A stretch of 64,000 nt of DNA from Acidimicrobiia bacterium. GTDB taxonomy: Bacteria > Actinomycetota > Acidimicrobiia > IMCC26256 > JAMXLJ01. Within the stretch, counting starts at the first letter, position 1. The number at the start of each line of letters is the position of its first letter. The position numbers and the translations under genes are program-made. A model generated the notes under the pieces. The model was not told the origin of the DNA, did no database searches, and worked only from the letters and a program-made list of their open reading frames with translations. Positions 2,754 through 52,145 of this stretch are shown here, piece after piece. The stretch covers positions 1 through 64,000 of the forward strand of contig JAMXLJ010000093.1 in the NCBI GenBank assembly GCA_024281095.1. The letters are read 5' to 3'.

Positions 2754-4340
2754 TCAGCCGAGCTCGATCGCCTTGGCGTCGAGGATGCCCGGCTCGGCCC
2801 GAAGCTGCTCGACGAGCTCGGTCGGCACCGTGCTCGACGTCGTGAGGGCCATCATCGCGGCCTCACCGCTCGGGCTCTTGCCCACCCGCATGTCCGCGAT
2901 GTTGATCCCCGCTCCGCCGACGATCATCCCGACCCGGCCGATCATCCCGGGCCGGTCCGCGTTGCGCACGATCAGCAGGTGACTGGCCGGCGGGATGTCG
3001 ATCACGTGGTCGTCGATGCCGACGATGCGGGGCTCGTCGTCGCGCCCGACGAGCGTGCCGTCGACGTGGACTGCCCGACCACCGACCTGACCGCGCAACG
3101 TCACGAGGTTGACGAACGAGCGCGCCGACGAGGAGGTCGTCTCGCGCACGTTGAGGCCACGGTCACGGGCCAGCTGCGGCGCGTTGACGAACGTGACGGG
3201 CTCGTCGACGACCGGCCCGAGGACGCCGCGCAGTACCGCCAGCGTCAGCACGCTGCAGTCGTAATCGGCGATCTGACCCTCGTAGGTCACTTCGAGCGTG
3301 TCGACCATCCCGCCGGCGAGGCCCGTGAACAGCGCGCCGAGCCGCTCGGCCAGGGGCAGGAACGGCCGCACCGTCGAGGACGCCTCCGCCGCGGCGACGT
3401 TGACCGCGAACGGCACGAAGTCGCCGTTGAGCGCGAGCACGACCTGCTCCGCGATGGTGACGCCCGCCTTGTCCTGCGCCTCGGCCGTCGATGCGCCGAG
3501 ATGCGGCGTCACCACGACGTGGTCGAGCTCGAACAACGGCGACTCGGTTGTCGGCTCGGTGGCGAAGACGTCGAGCGCGGCACCGGCGACACGGCCATCG
3601 CGCACCGCGTGTGCGAGCGCGGCCTCGTCGACGATCGCGCCCCGGGCAGTGTTGACGATCCGTAACGTCGGCTTCGCACGCGCGAGTACGTCGGCACCGA
3701 TGAGACCGATCGTCTCGCGTGTCTTGGGCAGATGGATCGTGAGGAAGTCCGCGTCGGCGACGAGGTCGCCGAGGTCGGGCACGAGTTGCACGCCGAGCTG
3801 GCGCGCCCGATCGGACGAGACGTACGGGTCGTACGCGCTGAGCCGCATCCCGAACGCAAGGGCCCGTTGCGCGACGAGCACACCGACGCGACCGAGGCCG
3901 ACGATACCGAGCGTCTTTCCGTGGAGCTCCACGCCTTCCCAGCGCGAGCGGTTCCACGCTCCGGCCTTCAAGTCGGCGTTGGCCTGCGGAATGTTGCGTG
4001 CCTGCGCGAGCATCAACGCGATCGTGTGCTCCGCTGCGGACAGCACGTTCGACTGCGGCGCGTTCACCACCATGACGCCCCGCCGGGTTGCGGCCTCCAC
4101 GTCGACGTTGTCGAGGCCGATGCCCGCCCGCCCCACCACGACGAGCTGGGACCCCGCGTCGAGTACTTCGGCGGTGACCCGCGTCGCGCTGCGGATGATC
4201 AGGGCGGCCGCGCCCTCGACCGCCTCGATCAGCTCGTCGGGTGACAGGCCGAGCCGCTCGTCGACCTCGAAGCCGGCCTCCCTGAGCGCGTCGAGACCAC
4301 GGGGTGCGAGCTGCTCGGTGACGAGAACACGGTCGGCCAT
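2754..4340 (-). CDS. serA: D-3-phosphoglycerate dehydrogenase
   Basis: MADRVLVTEQLAPRGLDALREAG...GLGRVGVLVAQRALAFGM...NTARGAIVDEAAL; C-terminal ACT domain; ORF track start is over-extended. Confidence 0.95.
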   Translation of the reverse strand: MADRVLVTEQLAPRGLDALREAGFEVDERLGLSPDELIEAVEGAAALIIRSATRVTAEVLDAGSQLVVVGRAGIGLDNVDVEAATRRGVMVVNAPQSNVLSAAEHTIALMLAQARNIPQANADLKAGAWNRSRWEGVELHGKTLGIVGLGRVGVLVAQRALAFGMRLSAYDPYVSSDRARQLGVQLVPDLGDLVADADFLTIHLPKTRETIGLIGADVLARAKPTLRIVNTARGAIVDEAALAHAVRDGRVAGAALDVFATEPTTESPLFELDHVVVTPHLGASTAEAQDKAGVTIAEQVVLALNGDFVPFAVNVAAAEASSTVRPFLPLAERLGALFTGLAGGMVDTLEVTYEGQIADYDCSVLTLAVLRGVLGPVVDEPVTFVNAPQLARDRGLNVRETTSSSARSFVNLVTLRGQVGGRAVHVDGTLVGRDDEPRIVGIDDHVIDIPPASHLLIVRNADRPGMIGRVGMIVGGAGINIADMRVGKSPSGEAAMMALTTSSTVPTELVEQLRAEPGILDAKAIELG

Positions 4341-5681: not shown

Positions 5682-6935
5682 ATGTTTCGGCGCGCCTGCG
5701 TCCTCCTCCTCGTTGTGGCCGGCCTCGTCGGCGCGCTCGCCGCGCCGGTTGCCGCGGCGAACAACGGCTCGCCCACGCACTCGTCGCGCGCGTCGCGCTC
5801 GACCGAGGTATCCGGGGAATGGACGCCCCCGGCCCCACGGGCCTACGTCGTCTTCGACCAGGACACCGGCACCATCCTCGCGTCGACCAACGAGCACCAG
5901 ATCTTCCTCACCGCGTCGACGGTGAAGCTCATGACCGCGTTGACTGCGCTCACGAAGCTGCCGCTGTCGAGCACGGTGACGGTCAGCCCGCGCGCGGCGA
6001 GCATGCCTGCGATGGACATCGGCGCGAAGCCCGGCCAGGTGTGGAAGCTCGACGACATGCTCCACGCGCTGCTGATGATCTCGGGCAACGACGCGGCGTA
6101 CGCAATCGCCGAGCGAGCCGGGGGCACCGTCGAAGGGTTCGCCGCGTTGATGAACGCGACCGGCAAGGAGCTCGGCCTGCGCGACAGCATGTTCAGCGAC
6201 CCGGCCGGGCTCGACGGCCGTGAGGGCCTCGGCGGTGGGAGCCGCATGTCGGCCTACGACCTCGCGGTGGTGGCGCGCAACGCGCGGGCCGTCCCGGAGA
6301 TCGCGTCGATCGTGCGCCTCTCGCGCTACAAGTTCACGGGCCCCGACGGCGCGCACGACCTGAGCAACCACAACAACTCGTTCCTGCTCAAGTACTCGGG
6401 TGCCGACGGTATGAAGACGGGCTACACGAGCCTGGCCCAGAACTCGCTCGCCGCCTCGGCGACGCGCAATGGGCGCACGCTCATCGCGGTGATGCTGGGC
6501 TCCGACGGCGGCGAGCTCGGCACCGCGCGTTGGGCGATGACATTGCTCGACTCGGCCTTTCGCACGGCGCCAGCTTCGGCGGGAACGGGCGAGGTGCTGC
6601 CGCCCGTGAAGGTCTTCACCGCCGACGCACGCGCCGGCCTGCTCGATGGGCTCGCCCGGCCGCTCGGCAGCAGCGGCCTCGCGGGCGCGGCTCAGACCGG
6701 CAACACACCGGCGGCCGCGGGGAAGGCGGTGCCCGAGGGCGGCGTCGTGGTCGCGGGCCAACGAGCGTCGACGCCGGTCTCGAGCCACGCGGGCGGCAGC
6801 TCGCTCACGCGGTACGTCGTCGGCGCGGTGATCGTGCTGTTGCTCGTCCTGCTGGTGCTGCGCCGGCGGGCCATCGTGCGCCGGCGCCGGCGGGTCCGGA
6901 GCCGCGCCCGCCGGGCGGCCTGGGAAGAGGCCTGA
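5682..6935 (+). CDS. D-alanyl-D-alanine carboxypeptidase (serine-type, S11)
   Basis: Signal peptide; [16 protein letters not shown] (SxxK), [11 protein letters not shown] (SxN), [15 protein letters not shown] (KTG); C-terminal TM. Confidence 0.93.
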
Positions 6936-9558: not shown

Positions 9559-10641
9559 GTGAACGAAGTACGAGGCGTCGTCGCACGCGCGAAGGGCGAA
9601 CCGGTAACGGTCGAGACGGTCGTGGTACCCGATCCGGGCGTGGGCGAAGTGCTCGTACGCGTTCAGGCCTGCGGCGTCTGCCACACGGACCTGCACTACC
9701 GCGAGGGCGCCATCAACGACGACTTCCCCTTCCTCCTGGGCCACGAGGCGGCGGGAATCATCGAGACCGTGGGCGAGGGGGTCACCGAGGTCGCTCCGGG
9801 CGACTTCGTGATCCTGAACTGGCGCGCGGTGTGCGGCGAATGTCGTTCCTGCCGGCGGGGCCGGCCCTGGTACTGCTTCTCGACGGCCAACGCGACGCAG
9901 AAGATGACGCTCGGCGACGGCACACCGCTCAGCGCCGCGCTCGGTATCGGCGCGTTCGCCGAGAAGACACTCGTCGCGGCCGGACAGGCCACGAAGGTCG
10001 ACCCGCGTGCGCGCCCGGAAGCAGCCGGACTGCTCGGCTGCGGGGTGATGGCGGGCCTCGGTGCCGCGATGCTCACCGGCGAGGTGCGCCGTGGCGACAC
10101 CGTCGCGGTGTTCGGTTGCGGCGGGGTCGGGAACGCCGCGATTGCGGGCGCGCGTCTCGCGGGTGCGGCACGTGTCATCGCGATCGACATCGACGCGCGC
10201 AAGCTCGTGTGGGCCAAGGAGTTCGGCGCGACCGACGTCGTCGATTCCCGCGAGACAGACCCGGTGGAAGCCGTGAAGTCGCTCACCGACGGCAACGGGG
10301 CCGACGTGTGCATCGAAGCCGTGGGCCGCCCGGAGGTGATGGAACAGGCGTTCTACGCGCGCGATCTCGCGGGCACCCTCGTGCAAGTCGGCGTGCCCGA
10401 TCCCTCGATGCGCGTGGAGCTTCCCATGATCGAGTTCTTCGGCCGCGGCGGCGCGCTCAAGCCGAGCTGGTACGGCGACTGCCTTCCGAGCCGCGACTTC
10501 CCCGCGCTCATCGATCTCTACCTCCAGGGCCGGCTCGATCTCGACCGGTTCGTCAGCGAGACGATCGACCTCGACGGTGTCGAGGACGCGTTCCACAAGA
10601 TGGAGCGCGGCGAGGTGCTGCGCTCGGTGGTCGTCCTCTAG
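9559..10641 (+). CDS. S-(hydroxymethyl)mycothiol dehydrogenase / Zn-dependent alcohol dehydrogenase
   Basis: [70 protein letters not shown]. Confidence 0.88.
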
Positions 10642-11821: not shown

Positions 11822-13279
11822 CTACCCCGTGGCGCCGTAGCCGTCGTTGCGAACGCCGACGTAGGTTCCGCCGCTGTACGCGAGGCCGCGCCACCGGTCC
11901 GCCTTCGCGTAACCGGACAGCGTCACGGAGCGCATCGAGCCGGTTCCGTGCACGACACCCCATGCGTCGAGCACCGCCCACCCGTTGCCCTTCGGGTCGA
12001 CCGCGAGACCGCGGGCGGTGTCCCAACCGGCCCAGTACGACGTCGTCGGGTACACGTGCGCAGTGCCGGACGGGTGCACACTCCCCCACCCGTCGAGGAC
12101 CCACAGGCCCGTCGAGTGCACGCCGTCGGGCGCGGAGAGCGCGACGCGACGGGCGATGTCCCAACCGGGCCAGTACGTGTCGGGCAGAGGCAGGCTCGAC
12201 GCGGTGCCGGACGTGTGCACGCCGCCCCAGCCGTCGACGACGACGAGTCCCTGCCCGTCGGCGGTGATCGCGATGCCGCGGGCGATGTCCCATCCGGGCC
12301 AGTAGGTCGTGGGGAGCGGGAGCGCGGCGGCGCTCCCGAACTTCTGCACGCCGCCCCAGCCGTCGAGCACCACGTAGCCCTTGCCATCGGGCATCACCGC
12401 GATGTCACGGGCGATGTCGAAGTTGAACGTCGGAGCACCGGCGTACAGCGCGCCCCCGTACGCGGAGACCCGACCGTCACCGTTCAAGACGTAGTAGCCG
12501 CCGAGCGGGTTCGCCGCGACCGCGCGGCCCGGCTGACGCAGCGCGGCCGGGCAGCCCCACGCGAAGTTGCGTACACCGAACCCCGGACTGTCGGGAGGGC
12601 ACGCACCGGGCAGGCCGGCGAAGATGAGCATGCGGTTGTAGATGCCGAGGACCTTCTCCGCGTAGTCCGGCGCGGAGGCCCAGTTGCCGTTGCCCATCTG
12701 CGACCACGTGGGCGCGACGCCCTTCTTGAAGAACGTGTCGTACGCCCGAGCGCTGCCGCCGGCGTCGACGAGTGGGTAGTGCAGGTTGGCCGCCCGCGAC
12801 AGCGGGTCGGCGTAGCTGCGCAGATGCTGGATCTGGGCCCGCACACCTTCCTCTGCGGTCGGCGCGGTGAAGACGACGCATCCGCCGCACGCGCCCATTC
12901 CCGAGAAGTTGTTGAACCACGGACGCACGTAGCCGCCGTCGGGGAACGAGAACCACCCTGTCTCGAGGATCGACTGCGCGAACGCGACGTCGCCGCGCAC
13001 GTTCTCCGCGTTGCCCTCGTCGACGAAGATCTGAGCGAGGATGTCGATCGGCACGGTCGCGCGGTAGGGCTGCCGAGTGTTGGCCTTGAAGTACGCGGCG
13101 AGTTGCGGGCCGCTCAGGCGCGACGGGCCCATCACGGGTTGACCGGCGAGGTCGAGGGCAGCTGCCCGCCGCGTCGGTGAGGAAGCGCCGCTCGGCAGCA
13201 CCGTCGCGAAGACTGCGACGAGTGCTGCTACTCCAGCGAGCGGAACGAGGACGCGATGAGGATGATGAGGGTGGCGCAT
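11822..13279 (-). CDS. Secreted glucosaminidase-like cell-wall hydrolase with C-terminal WD/Trp-Gly-rich repeats
   Basis: Signal peptide; IDILAQIFVDEGNAENVRGDVAFAQSILETGWFSFP...NNFSGMGACG; C-terminal repeats YWPGWDIARGIA...DGWGGVHTSGTA. Confidence 0.75.
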   Translation of the reverse strand: MRHPHHPHRVLVPLAGVAALVAVFATVLPSGASSPTRRAAALDLAGQPVMGPSRLSGPQLAAYFKANTRQPYRATVPIDILAQIFVDEGNAENVRGDVAFAQSILETGWFSFPDGGYVRPWFNNFSGMGACGGCVVFTAPTAEEGVRAQIQHLRSYADPLSRAANLHYPLVDAGGSARAYDTFFKKGVAPTWSQMGNGNWASAPDYAEKVLGIYNRMLIFAGLPGACPPDSPGFGVRNFAWGCPAALRQPGRAVAANPLGGYYVLNGDGRVSAYGGALYAGAPTFNFDIARDIAVMPDGKGYVVLDGWGGVQKFGSAAALPLPTTYWPGWDIARGIAITADGQGLVVVDGWGGVHTSGTASSLPLPDTYWPGWDIARRVALSAPDGVHSTGLWVLDGWGSVHPSGTAHVYPTTSYWAGWDTARGLAVDPKGNGWAVLDAWGVVHGTGSMRSVTLSGYAKADRWRGLAYSGGTYVGVRNDGYGATG

Positions 13280-42022: not shown

Positions 42023-42931
42023 ATGCACGATCGGATCGGGCTCCTGTACCTCGAACGGCTCGGCGCCGACGACGTCGAGCTGCTCGCCGACGCCGCCCGA
42101 CACGGCGGTTACCGCGAGGTCGATGCCGCGCGGTTGCGCGCGGAGCCGGCTCGGATCGTGCCGTTGTTGTCGGAGCAGGCCACGCGTGACGCGGTGTTCG
42201 GCACCGCCGAGGAACTCGCGACCCCGGGCCGCCTCGTCACGGCGCGTGCCACCGCGTCGGCCTTCCTCACCTTCGCGGTCGCGGTGCACCAGGCCGCCGC
42301 AGAGTTGGACGACCTGCACTTCACCGCGGAGTGGGTGGGCCCGCGCCGGCGTCTGCCTGTGTTCGACGTGCCCGTCCTGCGCGACTTCGTCGCCGATCCG
42401 ATGCGCCGGCTGTTCCTGGTCGAGCTGCTCGCGTCGTACACCCACGTTGGCAGCGGAGCCACCTGGGAACGGACCTCGCGCGGCTGGCGACGCCGTCGGT
42501 TCAGCGAGCTCGAGCCTGCGCAGCTCGCCGCGCTGCTCGAGGTCGTCCCGGAGTCGGAACGGCCCGGTGTGTACCGGCGCCTCGGCGACCTCGCCCTCTT
42601 TCTCACGGGCGTGTTCCCGGACCACACCGCGGCGCGCGGCCTCGGGCCGGCGCAACGGCTCCGCCTGCTGCGCGTCAGTGGCGTCGACGCGGACATCGAC
42701 GACGTCCTGCCCGCCGATGTCACCGCACTGGGCACCGTTGGACTCCTGGAGCTGCTCGGTGAGCGTTGGTACCGCCTCGCGGTCGCGAACGCGCGGCCCC
42801 CGCTCACGGCGACGATGCAGGTGACGGGAGCAGTCTCGGAACAGTTCCGGCAGGCTCGCCGGGTGCTCAACTTCGTCACCGATCAATTCCTGTTCCCCAT
42901 GCGGGGACAGTGGTTCGGGATCGCGAGCTGA
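42023..42931 (+). CDS. Hypothetical protein, ~300 aa
   Basis: ORF with start following an A/G-rich stretch; GC codon bias; no family recognised. Confidence 0.65.
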   Translation: MHDRIGLLYLERLGADDVELLADAARHGGYREVDAARLRAEPARIVPLLSEQATRDAVFGTAEELATPGRLVTARATASAFLTFAVAVHQAAAELDDLHFTAEWVGPRRRLPVFDVPVLRDFVADPMRRLFLVELLASYTHVGSGATWERTSRGWRRRRFSELEPAQLAALLEVVPESERPGVYRRLGDLALFLTGVFPDHTAARGLGPAQRLRLLRVSGVDADIDDVLPADVTALGTVGLLELLGERWYRLAVANARPPLTATMQVTGAVSEQFRQARRVLNFVTDQFLFPMRGQWFGIAS

Positions 42932-42995
42932 AGCGGAGGCGTGGCCGGAGGCCGGGACGCCGCAGCGGAAGCGACCTGACAACATCGCGAGCTGA
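42920..42995. repeat. MIRU-like structured intergenic element, single copy
   Basis: AGCGGAGGCGTGGCCGGAGGCCGGGACGCCGCAGCGGAAGCGACCTGACAAC flanked by a 12-bp direct repeat ATCGCGAGCTGA (42920-42931 and 42984-42995). Confidence 0.7.
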
Positions 42996-42999
42996 GGGG

Positions 43000-43989
43000 T
43001 CAGCGGGTAGGGCGGGGCAACGTCACTTCCGCGACGAGCGAGCCGTCCTCCTCCGAGAGCGTGAGGCTGCCGGCCAGATCCGTTGCGGCGGCAGCAACCG
43101 CCTCGAGCGCGGGCGCGGCGTCCGCGTCGGCGGTCCAGCCCGTACACGACACGGTCAGTCCCACGGAGTCCGCCGCGCTGCGCACGGTCACGGCGATGCT
43201 CTCGGAACGCTTCGCAACCGCGGCGAGCAGTTCCTGTGCCATCCGCAGTGCGCCGAGCGCGAACGCGGCATCGAGCTCGGCCTCCATCACCGCCTCGGCG
43301 AGCTCCGCGTACGTGCCGACGTCCTCGCGAAGCAGCTCGACCTCGGTGGTCAGGGCAGCAGCGAGACGCTCGGCCGGCCCGATGAGCTCCGCGTCCGCCG
43401 CCGCGGGCTCGGGAAGCCATCCGGAACGGTGCTGGCGCAGCAGCTCGAGGCGCCACAGTGCTTCCGACAGCCCGGGCGGGCCGGTCTCGAGCGACACCTG
43501 GTGCGCGAGCCGCGCGATCTGGTCCTCGAGCGCCCGGGCCCGGGCCTCCTGGTCGGAACACCGCTGCTCCGCGTCCTTCGCGTCGCGTTCACTCGCCTCG
43601 GCTCGCTGCTCCAGTGCGACGTGCGGGCGCCGGTCGCGCATCACGACGACAGAACCGCCGGGCACCACGACCTCCCGATAGACGACCGGGACCGGGTCGC
43701 CACCGGACGCGTGCACCTCACGCGCTCCGCTGGTGCGGTCATCGCGAAGCACGCGTTGATCGAACGCGCCGGGTTCGCCGAGATCGCTCGCACTCCAGCC
43801 GAGCAGTGTGCGCGCCCGATCATCGACCGCGACGACGCGACGCGCCCGGTCGAGGCGCAGTGTCGCGTCGTCGGGCGCGACCAGCGCTTCGAGCGCCGGC
43901 ACTTGACGCGCAATGCGCACGGACATGATCACGAGGATCACCGCGACGACGACGAGAACGCCGGCAACCGCGACCGCGACCACACCCAC
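43000..43989 (-). CDS. Membrane-anchored PAS-like/coiled-coil signalling protein
   Basis: N-terminal TM; PAS-like segment LRLDRARRVVAVDDRARTLLGWSASDLGEPG; coiled coil; degenerate C-terminal domain. Confidence 0.55.
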   Translation of the reverse strand: MGVVAVAVAGVLVVVAVILVIMSVRIARQVPALEALVAPDDATLRLDRARRVVAVDDRARTLLGWSASDLGEPGAFDQRVLRDDRTSGAREVHASGGDPVPVVYREVVVPGGSVVVMRDRRPHVALEQRAEASERDAKDAEQRCSDQEARARALEDQIARLAHQVSLETGPPGLSEALWRLELLRQHRSGWLPEPAAADAELIGPAERLAAALTTEVELLREDVGTYAELAEAVMEAELDAAFALGALRMAQELLAAVAKRSESIAVTVRSAADSVGLTVSCTGWTADADAAPALEAVAAAATDLAGSLTLSEEDGSLVAEVTLPRPTR

Positions 43990-51969: not shown

Positions 51970-52016
51970 CGGGAGTCCTATCGGCCCGACCCCGAGCCAG
52001 GTTTACGAGGAGATGG

Positions 52017-52145
52017 AGCGCAGGCGTGCTCGGAGAGCGGGACGCCGGAGCGGAATCGACCAATTGAAACCAAGATGCAGCGCAGGCGTGCTCGGAGAGC
52101 GGGACGCCGGAGCGGAATCGACCAGTTGAAACCGAGATGGAGCGG
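52017..52145. repeat. Two tandem 62-bp MIRU-like units plus start of a third
   Basis: Units 52017-52078 and 52079-52140: AGCGCAGGCGTGCTCGGAGAGCGGGACGCCGGAGCGGAATCGACCARTTGAAACCRAGATGS. Confidence 0.85.

Follow-up and report, generated by a model that had tools for sequence, protein, structure and literature searches.

In the 64,000-nucleotide stretch of Acidimicrobiia DNA analysed here (hereafter the window), a short block at the end of the gene at 42023..42931 is one copy of a dispersed family of short repeats, which are likely to be non-autonomous, mobile or recently mobile, and to work like the mycobacterial interspersed repetitive units (MIRUs), which Supply et al. are said to have described in 1997. 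What is new here, on our analysis, is a MIRU-like dispersed repeat family in Acidimicrobiia that is unlisted in Rfam; MIRU-type behaviour itself is already known. The best supported mechanism is that the insertion of such an element is tolerated because translation continues across it.

The copy in the window

The core of the element occupies positions 42924..42976 of the forward strand (53 nt here, 54 columns in the model; covariance model R1 75.4 bits, E 4e-19 over the loci searched and 7e-18 over the genome). An earlier note on this DNA had placed a 52-bp block (42932-42983) directly after the TGA of the 42023..42931 gene; the letters and coordinates of that block are correct, but the core contains the stop codon, and its first 8 bases (CGAGCTGA, as placed by the model) are the end of the gene, which terminates ATC GCG AGC TGA. 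All parts of the element lie on the forward strand. The 5' strand of helix P1 (GCT, 42927..42929) overlaps the terminal AGC TGA and pairs with AGC at 42970-42972, as indicated by alignment A1 (columns 4-6/48-50, two pairs with two-sided changes) and by the minimum-energy RNA fold; GCT/AGC is a rare pair type for P1, in which complementarity is kept. Helix P1b (GC at 42933..42934 with GC at 42965-42966) is bordered on either side by purine-rich internal loops and is backed by covariation in A1 and by the energy fold. The hairpin GGCGT-GGCC-GGA-GGCC-GGG-ACGCC, already read from the letters, was found at 42938..42961 and comprises, on the evidence of sequence and covariation, P2 (GGCGT/ACGCC), P3 (GGCC/GGCC), the loop GGA and a 3-nt bulge (GGG) on the 3' side, and the conserved 3' end of the core (GACC) lies at 42973..42976 (columns 50-53, CGAC, are invariant in A1).

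The exact 12-bp repeat reported around the block, ATCGCGAGCTGA, is present on the forward strand at 42920..42931 and 42984..42995 and entered our flank-repeat count as a 12-bp match. Its first copy is made up of the final 12 bases of the gene and overlaps the first 8 of the element, and its second reaches 5 bases into the element (GCTGA). Because arrays elsewhere in the same genome also finish with the first 12-17 bases of another unit (at 52134-52145 and at locus L137), at least part of the second copy represents the beginning of a further, truncated unit (period 64), and because flank repeats are enriched across the family, a target duplication of ATCGCGA is compatible with the arrangement. 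By comparison with the other arrays, the 12-bp repeat is best read as the target duplication ATCGCGA joined to the first bases of that truncated unit. The arrangement that had suggested the likeness to MIRUs, a clean target duplication directly behind a stop codon, is the less typical feature.

The likeness to tandem units at 52.0 kb was borne out, as the core recurs there twice (3 pattern matches in the window vs 0.03 expected from shuffles). The two units (52009..52061, R1 76.5 bits, and 52071..52123, R1 71.6 bits, forward strand) form a tandem array of period 62 (TRF: 52011-52144, 2.2 copies), which ends in a truncated third unit (GAGATGGAGCGG, 52134..52145, forward strand) analogous to the 12-bp repeat at 42984. 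The window also holds a tandem repeat at 12140-12418 (period 129, 2.2 copies, 77% match).

The upstream gene (42023..42931, forward strand, 302 aa, no Pfam match) has orthologs in 4 other genomes of the order. Its natural end appears to be intact and its reading frame undisturbed, as the ortholog in the sister species (G001) stops at the equivalent residue without an element; the neighbour gene differs there. On the other side stands a convergent gene (43000..43989, reverse strand, 329 aa, no Pfam match), the stop of which is 23 bases from the element. Start-codon coupling is absent at this site, as a convergent neighbour leaves nothing for the copy to couple to. By its position between convergent genes the window copy is atypical of its family, most junction copies of which directly precede a start codon, and it is probably without function, except possibly in shaping the transcript end.

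Distribution and fold of the family

Blast searches of the source genome (G000, 4.39 Mb in 177 contigs) with either unit returned many further copies, as the earlier note had anticipated. The covariance model R1, which was built on A1 (53 copies from four genomes, aligned by sequence alone, with the structure drawn from the same copies), recovered 55 copies in this genome at E ≤ 0.001 and 68 at E ≤ 1. Among relatives, 41 copies were detected in G001, 40 in G030, 35 in G048, 22 in G049, 14 in G047 (a genome 64% complete) and 12 in either of G002 and G005; a few copies turned up in other genomes. This spread is patchy: most genera represented in the 58 genomes of the order are without copies, the positive genomes among 395 of the class all fall within one order, and 396 other genomes across the phylum contained zero copies. 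The family is confined to one group of mostly freshwater actinobacteria, and exact matches are found in Acidimicrobiia and Actinomycetota metagenome assemblies, one of them from Lake Baikal. No gathering matches on the elements were obtained in Rfam 15 (the window copy gave only chance matches at E > 2), and no account of such repeats in Acidimicrobiia was found in the literature. As regards carriage, the searches gave no phage match, and the single plasmid match (Gemmatirosa) was rejected as a short chance match, apparently within a reading frame.

The repeated unit consists of a 54-nt core and a short spacer (period 62-66 bp) and forms tandem arrays in 20 of the 123 cases. Near-identical copies occupy unrelated sites in different families of the order (100% over 54 bp against the consensus of G000). 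A second subfamily in the genus of G000, GTGCGGACGGAG...GGGAGCCATGA, forms the same hairpin, except that P2 is 9 bp long; it shows covariation of its own, and its model detects copies in a subset of the same genomes. Among individual loci of G000, we observed a subfamily-2-like element directly before an ATG (C54:5306-5389, L045), in which the hairpin part CCGGAGGCCGCAATGGCGCAG stands three times in tandem; a copy resembling it near a contig end (C50:135-184, L044); and three near-identical tandem units between two same-strand tRNA genes (C21:28073-28255, L131). Locus L137 carries two nearly identical GAGATGGAGGGGAGCCCTGGGCGGA-type elements separated by 3.4 kb. The first (6868-6921) and the second (10449-10502; 3499-3552 as numbered on the minus strand, where it lies) are opposite in orientation; a phosphodiesterase gene has one of them in its start region, a GlmS-like gene contains the other, and behind each the beginning of a further unit follows.

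From its base upwards the fold begins with P1 (3 bp) and P1b (2 bp), between which lies a purine-rich 3x3 loop. A further 3x3 loop (GGA/GGA) leads to P2 (5 bp) and then to P3 (4 bp), which is closed by a GGA(N) loop; on the 3' side, three bulged nucleotides (GGG) separate P3 from P2. In A1, 97.8% of the cells are paired, and 92 two-sided changes stand against 2 one-sided ones; the corresponding figures for A2, a wider alignment that was fitted to the model and so leans towards it, are 98.1%, 183 and 21. None of 500 shuffles reached the observed covariation, slid controls lay far lower, and the architecture recurs in the second subfamily, supported there by 21 two-sided changes. The share of G-U among standard pairs is 0.3% in A1 and 1.6% in A2, as compared to 6.1% in the tRNAs of the same genomes, which hints at, but does not prove, a structure kept at the DNA level or by strict recognition. 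Folding of the single window copy by energy favours a shifted CCGG/CCGG register, where covariation backs GGCC/GGCC, and yields z scores of -1.25 (RNA) and -1.61 (DNA); single-copy energy folding being uninformative, the case for structure rests on covariation.

The ends of the element are conserved as (G/T)GAG and CGACC. Its ATG was considered as a conserved start codon and rejected: GAT/ATC alternates with GAC/GTC, so that the triplet belongs to helix P1 and is not a start. P3 is species-biased (mainly GGCC/GGCC in G030 and GGTC/GACC in G048, shared sites included), as though copies had been converted or replaced together.

Start codons, reading frames and site turnover

Placement was assessed on genes called by a simple codon-usage script, which fixes individual starts only approximately. 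In 76 of 123 arrays a start codon on the same strand lies at -15..+45 nt of the 3' end of the element, as compared to 7 at the mirror position (p 9e-16). Placement at gene junctions, for which the earlier note had drawn the comparison with MIRUs, holds for the family; most junction copies stand directly before a start codon. Of 48 such genes in G030 and G048 taken jointly, 35 begin with a start codon that shares bases (-4 or -1) with the stop of a frame passing across the element; among control genes the proportion is 33% (p 8e-8). Strict micro-ORFs, with a start codon at most 24 nt upstream of the element, were found in 31 arrays (15 of 33 in G030; 11% in control genes). Coupling is seen in many copies of G030 and G048 and in subfamily 2 of G000; most type-1 copies of G000 and most copies of G001 are without it. 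In several of these arrays the upstream start codon duplicates that of the gene itself, as at L118 (CTGATGGAG...CTGATGGAG), L119 (TAATGGA...TAATGGA), L245 (CATGAGCAC...CATGAGCAC) and L214 (ATGAAGATC...ATGAAGATC).

The flank duplications that the earlier note proposed to look for at other copies are enriched but not universal: repeats of at least 8 bp border 14.6% of the arrays vs 2.9% of mismatched flank pairs, those of at least 7 bp only 25% of the arrays, and the length of the duplication ranges from none to 12 bp. In the flanks upstream of the elements, taken over all genomes, hexamers of the form TANNNT accumulate such that the first base falls ~16 nt ahead of the element (7 at -16 vs 0.05 expected), which suggests insertion at the start codons of leaderless or short-leader transcripts. 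The downstream genes have no common theme by Pfam (argG, rpsQ, atpH, clpP, nuoJ, hisI, a mutase, a thiolase).

Across the family, insertion between or inside genes usually leaves the reading frame unbroken. Copies within coding regions are a minority, and the clearest of them lies in a cytochrome P450 of G001 (L105), which, relative to its 78%-identical ortholog in G000 (L132), is longer by exactly 66 bases (22 codons), which make up the element plus a short spacer and keep the frame. A methylmalonyl-CoA mutase of G048 (L206) has ~21 extra residues, as judged against an enzyme only ~49% identical, and a GATase/SIS-domain (GlmS-like) protein of G000 holds one element. An alpha/beta hydrolase (L101) was rejected as a clean in-frame insert, the loop being variable in relatives.

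Occupied sites differ between G030 and G048, two species of one genus that have 7 sites in common. In a divergent intergenic region (L216/L202) the element stands beside one gene in G030 and beside the other in G048, and two adjacent junctions of one operon (L228/L230) are reciprocally occupied. G048 is without the element at L121 and L224, and likewise at L125, where the edges align poorly; the empty-site alignments of L121, L125, L224 and L228 are not clean at the edges. Empty sites in relatives, a check proposed in the earlier note, were found for several sites of the family; the window site affords no full test, as its neighbour in G001 differs.

Explanations and relation to known repeats

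As we see the family, a ~54-nt unit with its short spacer folds to a single bulged hairpin of four stacked helices. It would enter genomes mainly where translation starts or where a stop adjoins a start, in many cases duplicating a few target bases, and a mobilising enzyme would recognise the hairpin with its conserved loops. The orientation of the element and its open reading frames would let ribosomes read through it: a duplicated start codon would open a micro-ORF whose stop overlaps the true start codon of the following gene (ATGA or TGATG), or else ~20 residues would be added in frame. Read-through would make insertion nearly harmless, and this harmlessness would in turn explain the placement; tandem arrays and truncated second units may later arise by slippage or recombination. 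Several observations count against this MIRU-like explanation. No mobilising enzyme was found among the Y1 transposases and reverse transcriptases searched for: PF01797 is absent from all carriers, and a reverse transcriptase, present in G030, G002 and G005, is absent from G000, G001, G014, G045 and G047-G049, so that both were rejected as mobilisers. Many copies in the genus of G000 are not start-coupled, coupling is absent at the window site, flank repeats of at least 7 bp are limited to a quarter of the arrays, the edges of several empty-site alignments are unclean, the sites common to G030 and G048 indicate that not everything moves, and the conservation of the fold is stricter than a purely neutral insertion needs.

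The helices change in whole pairs and partly in a species-specific manner (P3), which points to hairpin-templated copying or conversion and not to one-by-one selection. We tentatively consider it possible that the hairpin element is recognised and copied as folded single-stranded DNA (or RNA) by some enzyme that would be aimed at translation start sites, where the host start would be duplicated to drive the micro-ORF. If this holds true, MIRU-like behaviour would have arisen twice, here through a mobilising system of separate origin.

The main rival is a cis-regulatory RNA leader, in which the 54-nt fold would lie in 5' untranslated regions or operon junctions and control downstream translation by binding a ligand or protein. 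The strict fold keeps this reading alive, together with its conserved purine loops and strong covariation, the sense-strand position just before start codons (76 vs 7), the promoter-like TANNNT hexamers ~16 nt upstream and the 7 sites common to G030 and G048. We nevertheless regard it as unlikely: the downstream genes are unrelated and form no coherent regulon, some copies lie within the coding regions of enzymes, in tandem arrays, or in the gaps that separate convergent genes or tRNA genes, and sites differ between species of one genus, all of which speaks against regulatory RNA as the main explanation. Moreover, there is no Rfam match, and G-U pairs are ~4-fold depleted relative to the tRNAs of these genomes, a strange deficit in an RNA under selection for its fold.

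Somewhat less probable still is a vertically inherited relic, spread by tandem duplication and recombination only, without present transposition, in which the fold would be a by-product of a palindromic origin; the common sites of G030 and G048 and the many tandem and truncated units fit such a history, but near-identical copies lie at unrelated sites across families of the order, and covariation goes on at every helix, when a neutral relic would lose its pairing. That the elements are REP-type palindromes moved by a resident RAYT or IS200-like Y1 transposase acting on single-stranded hairpins is highly improbable and largely refuted: despite the bulged hairpin with mismatched loops, the conserved fold with little G-U and the dispersed, often tandem copies, there is no conserved GTAG or CGTC tag, and PF01797, found in control genomes, is absent in G000, G001, G002, G005, G014, G030, G045 and G047-G049, so that the gene would need to be missing from all drafts.

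A recent review describes MIRUs as apparently mobile units that go into start codons and contain an ORF coupled to the gene at -4 (PMC12548453), and their units measure 53 and 77 bp (PMC2453075, PMC4213456). The family described here resembles them in its short units (a 54-nt core, 62-66 bp period), tandem arrays and position at gene junctions, in the start-codon insertion with an element ORF ending on the start of the next gene (-4 overlap) in many copies, and in its enriched flank repeats and sites empty in relatives. It differs in belonging to one order of another class, outside of which R1 is negative (the likeness to MIRUs being one of description), in its conserved bulged hairpin with strong covariation, and in having many uncoupled copies, some of them deep in coding regions; its defining feature may be a conserved fold instead of a conserved ORF. 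The MIRU resemblance put forward in the earlier note is thus partly supported: the analogy is good for the behaviour of the family, but the window copy is atypical and MIRU membership is not demonstrated.

Rickettsia palindromic elements are palindromic repeats that stand in frame in protein-coding genes and add a short peptide. In-frame insertion in conserved coding regions was likewise observed here (P450, methylmalonyl-CoA mutase), in a minority of copies, but the lineage is unrelated and start/stop junctions are favoured. With REPs, which carry GTAG/CGTC tags (PMC3733652), and REPINs the family has in common small, dispersed, extragenic hairpins with mismatches, often in tandem; in contrast, it has no such tag and no Y1 in its carriers, and lies inside or at the edge of reading frames. 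Like MITEs, the elements are short, non-autonomous and multi-copy, with some target duplication, but terminal inverted repeats of the classical kind, belonging to a known insertion sequence, were not identified, the length of the duplication is not fixed, and no partner transposase was found in a search that covered Y1 and reverse transcriptases.

For the annotation of these genomes, the family carries a warning, in that ~20-residue peptides of the type ETQRSPGRTAGRPERSRP derive from the repeat and not from protein evolution. We know of no experimental explanation for the spread of MIRUs and their placement at start codons, and comparison with a second family, from an unrelated class but placed by the same logic, gives access to this question. 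Its fold clearly covaries, its copies include in-frame inserts, and close relatives among its carriers differ in the sites occupied. The points on which it bears are the enzyme that tracks the presence of the elements, their target, and the form, DNA or RNA, in which the fold acts.
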